From Thermoactinomycetaceae bacterium (GTDB lineage Bacteria; Bacillota; Bacilli; Thermoactinomycetales; Thermoactinomycetaceae), in the NCBI GenBank assembly GCA_025449975.1, contig JANWIG010000038.1, positions 42,389 to 106,388 of the forward strand: a stretch of DNA of 64,000 nucleotides, given 5' to 3'. The notes under the pieces are model-generated. The model worked only from the letters and a program-made list of their open reading frames with translations. It was not told the origin of the DNA and did no database searches. The translations under genes and the position numbers were made by a program. Of this stretch, positions 34,712 to 42,577 are shown one piece after another. Each line of letters starts with the position of its first letter. The first letter of the stretch is position 1.

Positions 34712-34822
34712 TTAATCGTCTTCTTCCGGAAATTGACTGGCTCTCCCTCCCCAAATAAACACAACGATCAGGGATATAACGACCAATAGGATTGGTGCAT
34801 AAGTTATCCAAAAGTTTTCCAC
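34712..34822 (-). CDS. cydS: Cytochrome bd oxidase small subunit CydS-like
   Basis: 36 codons, too short for the ORF track. GTG start at 34822 with GAGGTGAG five bases upstream. It encodes MENFWITYAPILLVVISLI.., a single transmembrane helix with an N-terminal YAP motif and an acidic tail (PEEDD). This matches the CydS subunit seen in Bacillus/Geobacillus bd oxidases, which packs against CydA. It lies directly after cydB (11 bases), where cydS is expected. Confidence 0.75.
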   Translation of the reverse strand: MENFWITYAPILLVVISLIVVFIWGGRASQFPEEDD

Positions 34823-34833
34823 TTATACTCACC

Positions 34834-35847
34834 TCATTTTTTTCCTTGAACATAGTCACGATTAAAGAGAAATAGTCTCATCAGCAAATACAATGAGGGG
34901 ACCAACACCAAGAGTCCTGCAACAAAAGAGAGAATCAACGTATTTGCCATCACTTCATTGGTAAAACCATCATGAATGGTCAACATCGGATACAGCAGGT
35001 ATGGGTAGTGAGAAAAACCATAGGCAAAAAAAGCGAGGCCAAATTGCGCCATGACCGCGACAAAAGCGATCCCATAATATTTTTGCCGATATTGCAAATA
35101 TACGGCAATTCCAAAGGCGACAAGTGACAAGAGAAATGCCCAAGATAGATTTAGCATTTCGTTATAGTGTACAGCATTATGCTGTTTCAATGTAAAAAAG
35201 ACGACGATGGCAGCTAAAATCGTTGGGAAACTCCAAGCGAGTGCATATTTCCTTAAGAGCTGAGTTGCTTTCTCATCCTTTGCTGCATGAGCATAGTATG
35301 TGAGAAAACTAGCGGAGATAAAAAGGACACTGACGATCGCTAACAAGACCACACTCCATGAATACGGACTTTTTAAAAGTTCGCCATAAAGCAATTGCAG
35401 CGTGCCAGCTTCCTCTTTGATAAACCCACCCTCCGAGATCGTTAATACGGTGGTCAGAGAAGCTGGGATCAATAAACCGGTCACTCCATACAAAAAGGTA
35501 AAAATTTTATTCTCCTTATGCCCATATGTTCCAAAGGCATAGTAGGAGCCGCGAATGGCCAGCAAAATAATGGAGATACTAATTGGAACAAATAAGGTTG
35601 TTCCGTAATAATAAGCCGTTTTAGGGAAAAAGCCAACGATTCCTACAAAGAAGAAGACCAAAAACACATTGGTCACTTCCCACACAGGGGACAAATAACG
35701 CTGAATCACTTTGTGCACAACATGTTTTTTACCAAACCAGTCACTATAGATACTAAAAAAACCGGCTCCAAAGTCAATCGAGGCAACAATCAAGTAGCCA
35801 TAGAGGAAAAGCCATAGGACAGAAATACCAATTAACTCTTGGGACAT
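34834..35847 (-). CDS. cydB: Cytochrome bd ubiquinol/menaquinol oxidase subunit II
   Basis: 337 residues with AGGGGGT upstream. Eight or nine transmembrane helices. The N-terminus (LWLFLYGYLIVASIDFGAGFFSIYSDW) has the CydB signature. It forms the oxidase with CydA; the short YthB-like version is typical of Bacilli. Middle gene of the cyd operon. Confidence 0.92.
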   Translation of the reverse strand: MSQELIGISVLWLFLYGYLIVASIDFGAGFFSIYSDWFGKKHVVHKVIQRYLSPVWEVTNVFLVFFFVGIVGFFPKTAYYYGTTLFVPISISIILLAIRGSYYAFGTYGHKENKIFTFLYGVTGLLIPASLTTVLTISEGGFIKEEAGTLQLLYGELLKSPYSWSVVLLAIVSVLFISASFLTYYAHAAKDEKATQLLRKYALAWSFPTILAAIVVFFTLKQHNAVHYNEMLNLSWAFLLSLVAFGIAVYLQYRQKYYGIAFVAVMAQFGLAFFAYGFSHYPYLLYPMLTIHDGFTNEVMANTLILSFVAGLLVLVPSLYLLMRLFLFNRDYVQGKK

Positions 35848-35884
35848 TTACCATACCCCCTATAGTATATTACTTTTGAACCAT

Positions 35885-37192
35885 TTATTGTAGTTCTTTT
35901 TCAGCCGGTTTATTTTTAAATAACTTGTGTAGCGCCGATAAACAAGCGATTGTAAGCACCGTATACAAAATAGCGAACAAACCGAGGAAAATGCCTACAT
36001 CGTCCGAAGTGGTCGCTGCTTCACTCACTTTCATCAATCCGCGAATAATCCATGGCTGTCTCCCCACTTCCGTAAAAAACCAACCAATTTCGATCGCCAA
36101 CATCGCCAGAGGAGCAGAACCGATGAGGATCGATAAAAAAAGTTTGGAGCGGACAAGCTGCGGCTTTTTTCGTTCAAACAAGACATAAAGAAAGGCGACG
36201 ATGGTAAGAGCGATCCCAATGACAACCATCAGGTCAAATAGATAGTGGATATAAAGAGGTGGTTGTTCTTCTTTGGGAAACTCATTCAGTCCGATTACTT
36301 CTCCATCAGGAGTTCCATAAGCGAGAATACTTAAAGCAGATGGAATTTTTATCGCCGATTCCACTTGATTCTCCTCATTCAATGTTCCAAATAAGACGAG
36401 AGGAGCATTTTTTTCAGTTTCAAAATGCCATTCAGCAGCAGCTAATTTTTCTGGTTGATACTTCGCTAAAAATTTTCCAGCAAAGTCTCCAGCAACTGCG
36501 GTCGCAACAGAAAAGACGAGCGCAGCAATCATGGTAACCCGTAAAGCTTTTTTATAATAAACATGCCGTTTTCCTTTTAGTAGGTGATAGGCAGCAATCG
36601 CCGCGAGAATAAAAGCAGATGTCATATACGAAGTAGTCAACACATGGGCCACTTTCGTCGCTGTCGCTGGGTTAAACATCGCTTCCCAAGGATTGATATT
36701 CACCAGCTGACCATCAACCAAATCAAACCCCGATGGTGTATTCATAAACGCATTGACGGTTGTGATAAATACAGCAGACATGGAACCGCCAATCGCGACA
36801 GGAACCAATAGTAGCAAATGTAGTTTTGGATTCTTCACTCGATCCCAGGTATACATGTAAATGCCCAGGAAAATCGCTTCAATAAAAAACGCAAATGTTT
36901 CTAAAAACAAAGGTAGACCAATCACTTGACCAGCTAATTCCATAAACTTTGGCCAGAGCAGAGAGAGCTGTAAACCGATGGCTGTTCCCGTTACCACGCC
37001 AACCGCTACCGTAATCACAAATCCCCGACTCCAGCGCCGAGCCAAAAGAAGGTAGTGAGGATCGTTATTTTTCACACCAATCCATTGAGCCAAGGCAATC
37101 ATAACAGGAACCCCGACGCCAATTGTTGCGAAAATGATATGAAAAGCCAAGGTTAATTCGGTCAACATACGACTAAAAAAGACGGAATCCAC
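35885..37192 (-). CDS. cydA: Cytochrome bd oxidase subunit I
   Basis: 435 residues taking the GTG at 37192 (MDSVFFSRMLTELTLAFHII), which has GGGGTGA five bases upstream; the GTG at 37201 is too close to that site. Nine helices with the heme-ligand histidine in LAFHIIFATIGVGVPV and the GRQPWIIRGLMK motif near the C-terminus. The Q-loop is short, as in Bacilli. It oxidises menaquinol and reduces oxygen to water. bd oxidases resist sulfide, which fits the adjacent sulfide-oxidation genes. Confidence 0.95.
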   Translation of the reverse strand: MDSVFFSRMLTELTLAFHIIFATIGVGVPVMIALAQWIGVKNNDPHYLLLARRWSRGFVITVAVGVVTGTAIGLQLSLLWPKFMELAGQVIGLPLFLETFAFFIEAIFLGIYMYTWDRVKNPKLHLLLLVPVAIGGSMSAVFITTVNAFMNTPSGFDLVDGQLVNINPWEAMFNPATATKVAHVLTTSYMTSAFILAAIAAYHLLKGKRHVYYKKALRVTMIAALVFSVATAVAGDFAGKFLAKYQPEKLAAAEWHFETEKNAPLVLFGTLNEENQVESAIKIPSALSILAYGTPDGEVIGLNEFPKEEQPPLYIHYLFDLMVVIGIALTIVAFLYVLFERKKPQLVRSKLFLSILIGSAPLAMLAIEIGWFFTEVGRQPWIIRGLMKVSEAATTSDDVGIFLGLFAILYTVLTIACLSALHKLFKNKPAEKELQ

Positions 37193-37210
37193 CTCATTCA
37201 CCCCTCTAGA

Positions 37211-37294
37211 TTAGATGACTTTGGATAACAATGCGAAAAACATCACAATAGCGACGATACCGGACAGCATAGCAAGCCATTTTTCATCTTTCAT
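37211..37294 (-). CDS. 27-residue membrane micro-protein upstream of cydA
   Basis: ATG at 37294 with a strong GGAGGG six bases upstream; the stop is about 18 bases before the cydA start. The product is MKDEKWLAMLSGIVAIVMFF.. ending SKVI, a charged head and a single hydrophobic helix. It is not CydS, which is present at the other end of the operon, and its sequence does not look like CydX. Its position, spacing and ribosome site argue for real translation and for a role in oxidase assembly or stability (inference). Confidence 0.6.
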   Translation of the reverse strand: MKDEKWLAMLSGIVAIVMFFALLSKVI

Positions 37295-37314
37295 TTTCTC
37301 CCTCCTCATATCCT

Positions 37315-37427: not shown

Positions 37428-37445
37428 TTGTGACATTTTTCACAA
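37428..37445 (-). promoter_or_regulatory. Rex (or FNR) operator upstream of the cyd operon
   Basis: TTGTGA-CATTTT-TCACAA is a full palindrome matching the Rex NADH/NAD sensor box and also the FNR form TGTGA-N6-TCACA. Rex repression of cyd genes is known in Bacillus. TATAAA and TATAGT boxes lie immediately downstream on the minus strand, so a bound repressor would cover a promoter. Confidence 0.7.
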
Positions 37446-37540: not shown

Positions 37541-38182
37541 TCATGTCGACAGATCCAGATAATTGTTTTTGATCCCATACTGAATGAGCTGATGTTTATT
37601 TTTTAATCGAAGCTTATGCATAATGTTTGACTTATGATTTTCAACCGTTTTTGGACTGATGAGTAACTTTTTGGAAATCTCTTGGTTTGTAAAACCCAAT
37701 ACCGTTAGTCTGACGATTTCTTTTTCACGGATACTCAGTACAGAGCGAGACTTTACCTTAAACTTAAAAAGCTTACGGAGTTGTTCCTCAGGAATTCCCG
37801 TCTTATAAAATTTCTTCCCCTGATAGACACTGACAATCGCTTCATATAGCTCGCTCGCTTTACTATTCTTTAAGATAAAGCCTTGTGCATTGATCTGAAT
37901 CGCTTTTTGAATATATACTTCCTCATCATACATGGTAAGAATAATGATTTTTACATGCTCCATTTGCTTTAATATTTCTTGTGCCGAAGTAAAACCATCT
38001 AATCCATTTGGCATCGATAAATCCATCAAGATTACATCTGGATTGGTCCTCATTGCCACCCGGATCGCTTCTTCTCCATCACCCGCTTCTCCTACAATCT
38101 CAATCTCTGGATAACGTTCGAGCAATAAGATGATTCCCTTCCGAATCAAATCATGATCATCGACGATTAATACTTTGATCAT
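37541..38182 (-). CDS. NarL/NreC-type response regulator
   Basis: 213 residues, ATG with GGGAGAG upstream. Receiver domain with acidic pair VDDHD, phospho-acceptor Asp in DVILMDLSMPN (about residue 54) and the conserved Lys (FILKNSKA). C-terminal LuxR-type helix-turn-helix: LSIREKEIVRLTVLGFTNQEISKKLLISPKTVENHKSNIM. It overlaps the kinase gene by 26 bases. Located between the sqr and cyd operons, it is the candidate reader of the shared ATAGGG palindromes. Confidence 0.9.
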   Translation of the reverse strand: MIKVLIVDDHDLIRKGIILLLERYPEIEIVGEAGDGEEAIRVAMRTNPDVILMDLSMPNGLDGFTSAQEILKQMEHVKIIILTMYDEEVYIQKAIQINAQGFILKNSKASELYEAIVSVYQGKKFYKTGIPEEQLRKLFKFKVKSRSVLSIREKEIVRLTVLGFTNQEISKKLLISPKTVENHKSNIMHKLRLKNKHQLIQYGIKNNYLDLST

Positions 38183-39218
38183 CGGCTATACTCTCCCTTT
38201 CCAGTGGTACTCGAACCCAAATCGTCGTTCCTTTCCCCTGTTGAGACCAAATTCGAAAAGAGCCACTTAGCTGATCAATCCGTTCCGACATATGCTTTAA
38301 ACCTAAACCTTCTTCCACCTGATCAAGATCAAAGCCAATCCCATTATCCCGGATAATTAGTAAGATTTGTCCCTTTTTTACCTTTAGATCGATCTTCGCC
38401 TCGGTCGCCTGTGCATACTTAACGATATTATGGAGTGCTTCCTGAATGACACGATACAAATTGATCTCCACCATGGGATCAAACGATTCGACCACATTAT
38501 TCACGAAACGAATATTTAAGCCTTCCGCGCTCGCTTGAATCGATTGAATTAAACTTTTGATCGCAGGGATCAACCCTAGACGATCCAGCGTTTGCGGACG
38601 CAACTGGTAGGAATAAGCTTTGATATCTTGCATCACACTCTCCAACTCTTCACGTACCTCATCGAGATAACTGTGTAAGCGCGGAGACTTGACATAAGAC
38701 TCAATCGCTTGCAAGGCAACAGAAATCGTATATAGAGATTGTCCGACGCCATCATGCAATTCCTGAGCCAAACGCTTATGCTCGCTCTCCTGTACTTCGA
38801 TTAACTTCTGGATCATCTTTTTTGACATTTTTACTTCTTCTTCTTTTTGCTTTAAACTTTGATCTCTTAAGACGAGCAGATACTCTTTTTTTCCCGTTTT
38901 GGGATCATGGCAAATCATGGCTGTGCTCATTTCTACGTTGATCTTATTGCCATGATACGTAGGCATCTCCGATAAAAAATAAGGGACTTCTTCTCGTGAA
39001 ATCAAATAGCATTTATTTTCATTTGGACCTCTTTTTCGCGTTTCACAAAAAGAGCAATAGGGAACCTTATGCCCCAATTTCCATCCGGTTAATCGCCGAG
39101 CGGAAGGATTCATCATCATAATTTTACGGTTGTGATCCATCACAATGATCCCGTCTTGAATATGCTCAAAGATTTGCTTTAAATATTTATTCTCCAAAGG
39201 GAGCTCTTCATTATTCAT
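38157..39218 (-). CDS. Cytosolic PAS sensor histidine kinase, NreB-like
   Basis: 353 residues without a membrane segment. PAS domain (about 10-125), then HisKA_3 with phospho-acceptor RLAQELHDGVGQSLY, and an HATPase domain (IIRDNGIGFD, GLGLKHMSERI). The PAS core carries Cys55, Cys58 and Cys70 (C-x2-C-x11-C), the spacing of the first three Fe-S ligands of staphylococcal NreB; the position of the fourth (residue 73) is Ile. It may sense oxygen, redox state or sulfane sulfur by a cluster or thiol chemistry (inference). Confidence 0.88.
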   Translation of the reverse strand: MNNEELPLENKYLKQIFEHIQDGIIVMDHNRKIMMMNPSARRLTGWKLGHKVPYCSFCETRKRGPNENKCYLISREEVPYFLSEMPTYHGNKINVEMSTAMICHDPKTGKKEYLLVLRDQSLKQKEEEVKMSKKMIQKLIEVQESEHKRLAQELHDGVGQSLYTISVALQAIESYVKSPRLHSYLDEVREELESVMQDIKAYSYQLRPQTLDRLGLIPAIKSLIQSIQASAEGLNIRFVNNVVESFDPMVEINLYRVIQEALHNIVKYAQATEAKIDLKVKKGQILLIIRDNGIGFDLDQVEEGLGLKHMSERIDQLSGSFRIWSQQGKGTTIWVRVPLERESIADDQSINRR

Positions 39219-39310: not shown

Positions 39311-40711
39311 TTATACAGTTAAATGAGGAACCTCTTTGCTCCAACGATTGAATCCACCAGTTAGATTGTAAATCTTTTTGATCCCTTTCGCCTGTAAAAT
39401 GCTCGCAGCGATCGCCGAACGAGCACCAGAACGACATTGGACGACGACTGGACGATCTTTGGGAATTTCATTGTATCGATCCAGCAAAGTTCCTAACATA
39501 ATGTGACTCGCATTGGGAATATGTCCTTCCAACCACTCGGTCTGATTACGGACATCGATCAATGTCACTTCTCCTGATTCTACTTTTGCTGCTGCTTCTG
39601 CAGGAGTAATCTCTTCATAGCTTTCAAGGGACTGGCTACTAGCCAATGCCGTTTCTACATTCATATATCCTTTCACTTGATCGATTCCGATCGAGCGAAG
39701 AGCGATGAGCACATCATTCAATTGTCCTTCCTGTACTAACAGGTGAATCGGCTCTTCATAATTGACAAACCAACCAGCCCAATTGGTAAATGAACGATTA
39801 AAGGGAATATTGATCGTCCCATCGATATGCTTTTCGGCAAATTTACCAGCGGCACGGGTATCGATCACCATTTCGCCATTTTTCAGGGCTTTTTCAAGCT
39901 CTTCGATCGTCAATTCGGTCGGATCTTTTACATTTTCTAGCAGTGCGGGACCCACTTTATTCACGTGTTTCATCACAGCAAAATATTTTGGCGGTTCCGG
40001 TTGCCCCTCCAGCAGCGCTTGTACAAATTCTTCCTCATCTGTATAGGATAATGCCCAGTTAAATAGCTTCTCATAACCAACCGTTGAAGAAGGGACGGCA
40101 CCCAATGCTTTTCCGCAAGCACTTCCGGCACCATGTGCGGGCCAAAGCTGCAAATGATCAGGCAGTTGTTTGAACTTTTGCAGTGAGCGGAACATATCTC
40201 TGGCTCCTTGATCTGCCGTTCCTTGATAACCAGCCGCTTTCTCTAACAGGTCTGGTCGCCCAACATCTCCGACAAAAACAAAATCGCCGGAAAAAATACC
40301 CATAGGGGTATTTGCGCCGCGGTCTGTTAGCAAGAAAGAGATGCTTTCGGGGGTATGTCCTGGCGTATGCATCACTTCAAACATCAAATTCCCAATCGCA
40401 AAACGATCTTGGTCTTTTAACAAACGGTGCGAATAAGACTCCAGATTTTGATAGCGCCAATCAGGTCCTCCTTCATCCGAGACATATAAAGTGGCACCTC
40501 GTTTGGCTAGCTCGCGTCCTCCTGAGACAAAATCCGCATGAATATGTGTTTCCGCCGCAGCCGTAATTTTGACACCTTCTTTTTTCGCCGCTTCCAAATA
40601 AGGGGTGATATTGCGACCTGGATCGATGATAATCGCCTCGCCCGTCGCTTGGCAGCCAACCATATAAGAAGCATGAGCTAGCTTTTCATCATAGAAATAA
40701 CGTAATAACAT
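39311..40711 (-). CDS. cstB: Persulfide dioxygenase-rhodanese fusion, CstB-like
   Basis: 466 residues, GGAGGG upstream. An N-terminal metallo-beta-lactamase domain with THIHADFVSG and HTPGHTPES (non-heme iron persulfide dioxygenase of the ETHE1 type), then a rhodanese domain without the catalytic Cys (VIDTRAAGKFAEKHIDG), then a C-terminal rhodanese with active Cys in VVQCRSGARSA. In S. aureus CstB converts low-molecular-weight persulfides to thiosulfate. Third gene of the sqr operon, so it handles the persulfide released by SQR. Confidence 0.88.
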   Translation of the reverse strand: MLLRYFYDEKLAHASYMVGCQATGEAIIIDPGRNITPYLEAAKKEGVKITAAAETHIHADFVSGGRELAKRGATLYVSDEGGPDWRYQNLESYSHRLLKDQDRFAIGNLMFEVMHTPGHTPESISFLLTDRGANTPMGIFSGDFVFVGDVGRPDLLEKAAGYQGTADQGARDMFRSLQKFKQLPDHLQLWPAHGAGSACGKALGAVPSSTVGYEKLFNWALSYTDEEEFVQALLEGQPEPPKYFAVMKHVNKVGPALLENVKDPTELTIEELEKALKNGEMVIDTRAAGKFAEKHIDGTINIPFNRSFTNWAGWFVNYEEPIHLLVQEGQLNDVLIALRSIGIDQVKGYMNVETALASSQSLESYEEITPAEAAAKVESGEVTLIDVRNQTEWLEGHIPNASHIMLGTLLDRYNEIPKDRPVVVQCRSGARSAIAASILQAKGIKKIYNLTGGFNRWSKEVPHLTV

Positions 40712-40724
40712 CTATCTCCCTCCA

Positions 40725-41291
40725 TTATTTTCTGTTGCAGTTTTCTGTCCACACTTGTAGCAAAGCATGGATAAATTTTAAAGAATCTTGGACAGCGGGT
40801 TCCTTCATCCATCGTAGGATGGTAAAGAGTGAGACTTTTGTCTGATCTTGTTTCGCTCTTTCTTGTGCTTCTTTCACTAAGTCCAGCTTTTCTGTCACCG
40901 GTGCCAAATAGGATTTTACGCTTTCTCCTAGGTATTCAATCGAACTTTTATCCTGCATGAGCGATTGAACAAATAGTTGCACCTTCTCCAGCGTCTCGAT
41001 CATGGTGAGCAAAGTGGGCAGCTTATCTAAGAGTGTAATCAGCGCCTGCCATGTCTCTTCATTGATTTGATGGGTTTGTGTTAAGCGATCCCATTTTTCA
41101 CCAAGTTGTTTTAAACTAGTCTGGTCTTGGGCAATCGAAGAAACCAATACAGCTGCTTTTTCAGCCGAAAGTACCATCTCTTTAATCTGTGGAAGTTTTT
41201 GAATCAAAACCGTCAATGACTCCTGAACTTCTGGATCAGCCAGGGGATCTTGCCAAAGGGGTTGTTCCCCGACCGCTTTATTGTTTCCCAT
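40725..41291 (-). CDS. DUF1641 protein, companion of SQR
   Basis: 188 residues, helical, no membrane segment (ESLTVLIQKLPQIKEMVLSAEKAAVLV.., AYL-type repeats). DUF1641 proteins regularly sit next to sulfide:quinone reductases or formate dehydrogenases and are thought to be accessory factors without known catalysis. Lies between sqr and cstB with 14-base or shorter spacers; same transcription unit. Confidence 0.75.
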   Translation of the reverse strand: MGNNKAVGEQPLWQDPLADPEVQESLTVLIQKLPQIKEMVLSAEKAAVLVSSIAQDQTSLKQLGEKWDRLTQTHQINEETWQALITLLDKLPTLLTMIETLEKVQLFVQSLMQDKSSIEYLGESVKSYLAPVTEKLDLVKEAQERAKQDQTKVSLFTILRWMKEPAVQDSLKFIHALLQVWTENCNRK

Positions 41292-41305
41292 GAACTCCCC
41301 CCTCT

Positions 41306-42502
41306 CTACATCAATCCTTTAAGCATTCCGTTCCAGTACAAGATCGGCAATAAATCCTTTTTCACTAAATACATGCTAAAACGTTCTTGGGATTGATCAA
41401 TAGGAAACGATTCCTTCGGCTGTTTATTATAATCAAACTCAGCCATCACTAAACGATTGTAGCCTGTAACCAAAGGACAAGATGTATAACCATCATATTG
41501 TGCTCCGAGTACGTCACCTTGCATCGCAGAAACCAAGTTTTCGGCAACGACGGGCGCTTGCTTACGGATTGCTGCTCCGGTTTTAGAGGTTGGCAAGTTA
41601 GCACAATCCCCTAGCGCAAAAATATTATGATAACGACGATGTTGCAGAGTATATGGATCAACGTCCACCCAACCGTTTTGATCCGCTAACGGACTATTGC
41701 GGATGAAAGCCGGTGACTGCATCGGTGGAGTCACATGAAGCATATCGTACGCTAACACTTCTTGTTGTTTTGTTTCTAAGTTTTCAAACACGGCTTCTCT
41801 CTGGTCTGGGCGAACTTCGATTAAATTTCGTTTAAACATCGGGGAAATCTGTTTACGATGAACCACCTGTTCCAATGTTTTGGCATAGACCGGAACTTGG
41901 AAAATAGAATCGAGCGCTGTGGTAAAAATCACTTTTGACCGGTCACGAACACCCGCTTTACGGAAGGCATCATCAGCCAAATACATGATTTTTTGTGGAG
42001 CTCCCCCACATTTTACCGCTGTACTCGGCTGGGTAAAAATCGCTGTTCCCCCTTTAAAGTTGCGGATGGTCTCCCAGGTGTAGTCACAGTAATCATAAGA
42101 ATAGTTACTACAAACACCACCGGACCCCAAAGCTTCCTTCAGACCTTTGATCCCATCCCAGTTGATCTCAATCCCAGCTGCTACCACCAAAAATTGATAA
42201 CTGATCTGTTTCCCTTCTTGGGTACTAACCGTATTTGCTTCTGGATCAAATGTCGTCACTGCATCTTTGATCCAATCGACCCCTTCTGGAATCACAGAAG
42301 ACATTTCCCGCTCCGATGCTTTTTTATCGGTAACACCACCACCTACCAATGTCCAAAGCGGTTGATAATAATGCTTGGAAACAGGATCAAGGATAGCGAT
42401 CTTGCCCTTCAGTCCGGGATATGCACGCACTAAATTGGCGGATACCATAATCCCCCCTGTGCCTGCACCAACAACGACGATTGGATAATGTACCTGTGCC
42501 AT
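41306..42502 (-). CDS. sqr: Sulfide:quinone oxidoreductase
   Basis: 398 residues from the second of two adjacent ATGs (42502); a G7 ribosome site is five bases upstream. N-terminal FAD fingerprint VVVGAGTGGIMVSANL, second FAD segment NIFALGDCANLPTSKTG, and the redox-Cys region TAVKCGGAPQKIMYLADD, which resembles type II SQR such as the mitochondrial enzyme. Membrane-associated flavoprotein that oxidises sulfide to a persulfide and reduces menaquinone. First gene of sqr-DUF1641-cstB. Confidence 0.9.
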   Translation of the reverse strand: MAQVHYPIVVVGAGTGGIMVSANLVRAYPGLKGKIAILDPVSKHYYQPLWTLVGGGVTDKKASEREMSSVIPEGVDWIKDAVTTFDPEANTVSTQEGKQISYQFLVVAAGIEINWDGIKGLKEALGSGGVCSNYSYDYCDYTWETIRNFKGGTAIFTQPSTAVKCGGAPQKIMYLADDAFRKAGVRDRSKVIFTTALDSIFQVPVYAKTLEQVVHRKQISPMFKRNLIEVRPDQREAVFENLETKQQEVLAYDMLHVTPPMQSPAFIRNSPLADQNGWVDVDPYTLQHRRYHNIFALGDCANLPTSKTGAAIRKQAPVVAENLVSAMQGDVLGAQYDGYTSCPLVTGYNRLVMAEFDYNKQPKESFPIDQSQERFSMYLVKKDLLPILYWNGMLKGLM

Positions 42503-42577
42503 CATTTCCCCCCCGTGAATTGTTTTCTTCGGAAAGTATTTACATATATATTTTCCGTTAAAAAGTTTGGATAATCT

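Follow-up and report, generated by a model that had tools for sequence, protein, structure and literature searches.

The small subunit CydS binds CydA of the bd oxidase along its TM5/TM6 face. In the crystal structure of the G. thermodenitrificans enzyme, CydS is the third subunit, chain C of 5DOQ, and it is on this three-subunit structure that the mechanistic differences between the Geobacillus and E. coli enzymes are based, among them an open O2 channel and exchanged heme b595/d positions (PMC6853902, PMC8951039). A 2026 paper gives CydS as the only small subunit of this enzyme (PMC13189123). E. coli bd-I has a fourth subunit, CydH/CydY (YnhF), a 29-aa helix with its gene outside the operon; it blocks the lateral cleft for O2 that the Geobacillus structure shows as open (PMC6853902, PMC8951039). 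For Firmicutes, DUF1540/YthC was proposed earlier as a CydX-like protein (PMC5322542).

We analyzed a 64-kb window (by which we mean the whole stretch of DNA under study) containing a cyd operon with the gene order pep-cydA-cydB-cydS, in which the first ORF encodes a 27-aa peptide. The features are as follows:

34712 to 34822, minus strand: cydS, the known small subunit (Pfam CydS PF22282, E=6.6e-11)
34834 to 35847, minus strand: cydB, bd oxidase subunit II (PF02322, E=5.3e-43)
35885 to 37201 (start may be GTG 37192), minus strand: cydA, bd oxidase subunit I (PF01654, E=3.3e-139; best PDB match 5doq_A)
37211 to 37294, minus strand: predicted 27-aa single-helix membrane peptide MKDEKWLAMLSGIVAIVMFFALLSKVI, opening the operon (profile match 30.8 bits; genome-scan match E=7.2e-9)
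37300 to 37306, minus strand: Shine-Dalgarno sequence AGGAGGG, 5 nt ahead of the peptide ATG
37428 to 37445: palindrome TTGTGA-N6-TCACAA, a putative Fnr/Rex-type dyad, perfect match, upstream of the peptide

The peptide ORF, complement(37211..37294), runs from ATG to TAA, and its product combines an MKDEK head with a hydrophobic stretch (mean Kyte-Doolittle value of 2.35 over residues 9-27). AGGAGGG is read at 37306-37300 from the minus-strand sequence TATGAGGAGGGAGAAAATG; the in-frame ATG at 37309, which would give 32 aa and overlaps with this site, is an unlikely start. The distance from the TAA to cydA is 9 nt if cydA starts at GTG 37201, as in the ORF list, or 18 nt if it starts at GTG 37192; the latter start has AGAGGGG 8 nt upstream and yields the N-terminus MDSVFFSR, which is more like that of the relatives. 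The 438-aa window CydA aligns end to end with the short-Q-loop 5doq_A, and the window CydS aligns weakly with 5doq_C (E=0.06). The initial annotation had described an ATG with a strong, well-spaced ribosome site, a stop just before cydA, a single hydrophobic helix with a charged head, and CydS at the other end of the operon, and this description of the locus, which gave no strand, proved correct.

The window peptide belongs to a recurrent family. In a starting sample of 80 cydA loci from named Bacilli, a short membrane ORF recurs upstream of cydA with the consensus MYKKQEKxLIWLAFIVAxIMLLSIIGRIFG, and the profile of these recurrent peptides also picks up the window peptide, which scored 30.8 bits (E=9e-6 for a database size of one million sequences) against a profile built without it. 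Among 50,079 reversed ORF segments used as a control, the maximum was 11.5 bits, and 133 real matches exceeded 20 bits. The profile was required for detection: with the 27 residues alone as the query, a search within the window's own family gave chance-like matches only. Iterating the profile expanded the set to 76 and then to about 118 distinct genes, with products of 27-36 aa that contain one hydrophobic stretch and share the core KQEK-x-L-(hydrophobic helix)-(R/K)-x-F, including a conserved A between the L and the R/K; MKDEKWLAMLSGIVAIVMFFALLSKVI is a diverged member. Chance was judged to account for the weak profile matches in L196, L225 and G112, the last of them partial and within a frame of 143 aa. 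Standard annotation overlooks the peptide gene, no family matching the window peptide was found in Pfam or NCBIfam, the plasmid collection contained no useful homologue, and a search of the open-access literature returned no description of the family.

Comparison of 51 close pairs, which overlap and are not independent and which included both standalone and operon copies, gave pN of 0.087 versus pS of 0.505, a ratio of about 0.17, with differences at codon positions 1, 2 and 3 numbering 212, 78 and 523, so that position 3 accounts for 523 of 813. This ratio indicates purifying selection at the protein level and hence coding. Thus, on strong evolutionary evidence for coding, we regard the peptide as a genuine translated single-helix membrane protein of an undescribed, unnamed Bacilli family. 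In three Neobacillus loci (L009, L010 and L015), the conserved frame apparently starts with ATT after a strong Shine-Dalgarno sequence; this seems to be either a rare start codon or a sign that the true start lies elsewhere.

The initial annotation had named a lack of conservation ahead of cydA in relatives as refuting evidence; instead, the peptide lies directly upstream of cydA at 79 distinct loci in many Bacilli families, with a median gap of 15 nt and, at 69 of these 79, a match to the Shine-Dalgarno sequence that is 4 nt or longer. At 5 more loci (3 Gottfriedia-type and 2 others) it is found downstream of cydB, so that it accompanies cydAB in a second position too. Two genomes with two cydAB operons each (G395 and G128) carry two copies of the peptide, one per operon. 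Standalone copies away from cyd were detected in about 33 genomes, next to, for instance, clpP (within the family and order to which the window belongs) or a gene for a universal stress protein. Of the 45 named genomes whose fetched cydA is not preceded by a copy, 28 carry one by profile, in 3 cases downstream of cydB (the Gottfriedia-type loci), in 6 beside another cydAB, and in 19 standalone; a weak second match in one genome (L196) was left out. Anoxybacillus and B. infantis share a different membrane ORF of 33-48 aa, FSGLVVFIIGNLPVFVVFIIFIGLLIF..., which is found ahead of cydA in L046 and L060, at a distance of about 160-300 nt, and also in L039; in genomes with this ORF, the copy of the peptide studied here lies elsewhere.

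Like CydS, the peptide is a single helix of about 30 aa, from the cyd operon of Bacilli, associated with the same CydA type and often in the same operon, but its charged head is N-terminal whereas that of CydS is C-terminal, and its gene lies upstream of cydA (79 loci; 5 downstream of cydB) rather than after cydB. CydS follows cydB in most of the named loci with a cydA-linked peptide, and in the Paenibacillus loci a diverged CydS-like ORF was seen there by eye; the peptide thus usually coexists with CydS and is not a substitute for it. Neither the window peptide nor any of 19 family members matched the CydS profile PF22282, and a CydS paralogue was ruled out (hhalign probability 0.6). CydH is likewise a single helix of about 30 aa and a second small protein, beside CydX as the peptide is beside CydS, and its gene lies away from the operon, as do the standalone members of the peptide family; however, CydH accompanies the long-Q-loop enzymes of Proteobacteria, whereas the peptide accompanies short-Q-loop CydA and, apart from one weak partial match, was found only in Bacilli. 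Homology to CydH was also ruled out: hhalign gave a probability of 1.1 with a single aligned column, and the peptide HMM did not report CydH. CydX and AppX are small single-helix bd subunits with genes in the operon, but CydX is encoded after cydB, a slot that CydS fills in Bacilli; the NCBIfam CydX model did not match the window peptide and gave no match above its curated cut-off for six relatives. Membership in the CydH, CydS and CydX families is rejected as far as these comparisons go, and no Pfam match to DUF1540/YthC was found among the 19 peptide-family members examined.

The distribution of the peptide follows that of the enzyme. In a set of 400 Bacilli-class genomes, 334 encode any CydA, 229 encode a CydA of the window type, and 79 carry the peptide; all 79 peptide-positive genomes encode window-type CydA, and none of the 66 CydA-less genomes has the peptide (hypergeometric probability 6e-23 by genome, 1e-11 by genus and 3e-4 by family, calculations that ignore phylogeny). 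A broader profile raised the number of positive genomes to 84, of which one (G112, a weak partial match) falls outside the 229, and a phylum-wide draw of 260 genomes produced 4 matches, 3 from Bacilli and one weak partial. Many close relatives with CydA 58-67% identical, several of them with CydS, lack the peptide at the locus; one of them, L240, has a diverged candidate, MHMQKRETVYFWMAALVAFGSAISLMII, at the peptide's position. Since the peptide is missing in several relatives with this CydA and CydS, it is a dispensable accessory, not a universal component. The comparative data make a strong case for a link between the peptide and the bd oxidase.

In the CydA tree, 77 of the 80 members of one clade have an operon-linked peptide. 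The window CydA falls inside this clade and the CydAs of the window's own family fall outside it; identity of the window CydA reaches 70% with another family (f16), against 60-66% with its own family, many members of which keep a copy of the peptide elsewhere, often beside clpP. This grouping with another family suggests that the window operon (34712-37294) was probably acquired horizontally as a unit. Contrasting the conservation of CydA in peptide-bearing and peptide-less operons, so as to locate a docking face, revealed no clear surface, since the linked CydAs form a clade of their own.

The genes around the window operon likely represent a sulfide-oxidation neighborhood. Upstream of the operon, the minus-strand stretch 39311-42505 has genes for a fusion of metallo-beta-lactamase and rhodanese, for a protein of 188 aa that matched nothing in Pfam, and for a pyridine-nucleotide-disulfide oxidoreductase similar to sulfide:quinone reductase, and a TauE exporter gene follows the operon; bd oxidase is a sulfide-tolerant oxidase. 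Parts of this neighborhood are common to loci of family f16 (L143, L156). A CSFC-x11-C motif, which may be a site for sensing metal or redox state, lies in the PAS region of the sensor kinase adjoining the operon (38157-39218, minus strand).

The palindrome upstream of the peptide is of the TGTGA-N6-TCACA type known for Fnr or Rex sites, and fits control of the operon by one of these regulators; TTGTGA-N6-TCACAA with up to 1 mismatch is expected 0.16 times in 64 kb. With at most 1 mismatch, TGTGA-N6-TCACA occurs ahead of 26 of the 79 linked copies (0.9% expected) and of 6 of the 34 standalone matches (0.7% expected), three of these six being near-identical, which hints that some standalone copies may be under control shared with the operon. 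In many Geobacillus operons, two dyads of this kind precede the peptide.

Taken together, the 79 cydA-linked loci, the purifying selection and the co-occurrence with one CydA type favor the initial annotation's reading of a second small subunit or assembly factor. Synteny and co-occurrence agree with its assignment to the bd oxidase; peptide genes remote from cyd in some lineages, and the lack of a peptide in some close relatives, go beyond that reading or against it. Association with cydAB genes and co-occurrence with CydA, both found here, fit the class of small accessory proteins of bd oxidase. The peptide probably serves the short-Q-loop (5DOQ-type) bd oxidase of Bacilli as a second small accessory subunit. 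Its one helix would pack on CydA/CydB, and its charged K-[KQ]-x-E-[KR] head, by the positive-inside rule from which we infer the topology, would probably be cytoplasmic; physical binding to CydA/CydB and a role in assembly or stability of the oxidase are, likewise, presumed. The roughly 33 copies far from cyd may point to a wider role.

Ranked second to the subunit as an explanation, and rather unlikely in our estimate, is a factor for assembly or insertion, acting in heme loading or membrane insertion of CydA/CydB and not retained in the mature enzyme. Such a factor could be dispensable in some relatives, as the peptide is, and its gene would aptly come first in the operon, so that the peptide would be made before CydA; it could also be missing from 5DOQ although its gene directly precedes cydA in that species. 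However, the pairing of one copy with each operon, where a genome has two cydAB operons, agrees at least equally well with a dedicated partner, and the known small one-helix bd proteins CydX, CydS and CydH are subunits (PMC8951039). A small membrane protein with a general stress role, or a peptide resembling type I toxins, that is no more than a neighbor of cydA would be small and hydrophobic with charged ends, and could explain the standalone copies beside clpP or the universal stress protein gene in some families, but is improbable given its absence from CydA-less genomes and the persistence of operon-linked copies with cydAB in two positions and in duplicated operons. A regulatory leader peptide or upstream ORF controlling cydA, with an amino-acid sequence of little weight, would suit the location just upstream of cydA and the weak starts of some lineages (GTG or TTG, and perhaps ATT in Neobacillus), but is strongly contradicted, to the point of being very improbable, by selection on the protein, by copies downstream of cydB or far away, by a single hydrophobic helix whose ends are conserved, by the lack of any conserved series of regulatory codons, and by an Rfam search that found no regulatory RNA element at the locus.

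For the preferred reading, the second small subunit, the structure species is of particular relevance. One locus of the Geobacillus/Anoxybacillus family (L220) encodes a CydA 99.5% identical to PDB 5doq_A and thus comes from G. thermodenitrificans or nearly so; directly upstream of its cydA lies MWERHEKTLVFISFAVAAVALLSLIGRLFS, whose site reads GGGGGG. In the 5DOQ/5IR6 crystal structure, CydA, CydB and CydS are present and the peptide is absent, and no PDB chain sequence matches the peptide family, so that the solved enzyme was modeled without it. This absence may reflect weak binding, loss on purification, or a protein that is no stable subunit, and the bd oxidase structure of G. thermodenitrificans may have a missing part. 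A CydH-like mode of action, in which the peptide would plug the lateral TM1/TM9 oxygen cleft of CydA, is possible by analogy and speculative; that the peptide is a fourth subunit, lost or unmodeled in the G. thermodenitrificans crystal and capping this cleft as CydH does, we regard as doubtful. If it were true, a missing subunit would account in part for the oxygen entry described as 'open' and for the difference in mechanism deduced from 5DOQ. With a small gene ahead of cydA in the structure species itself, the question of a missing subunit is directly testable, and the peptide represents an additional protein family to annotate in an enzyme class that is a drug target.
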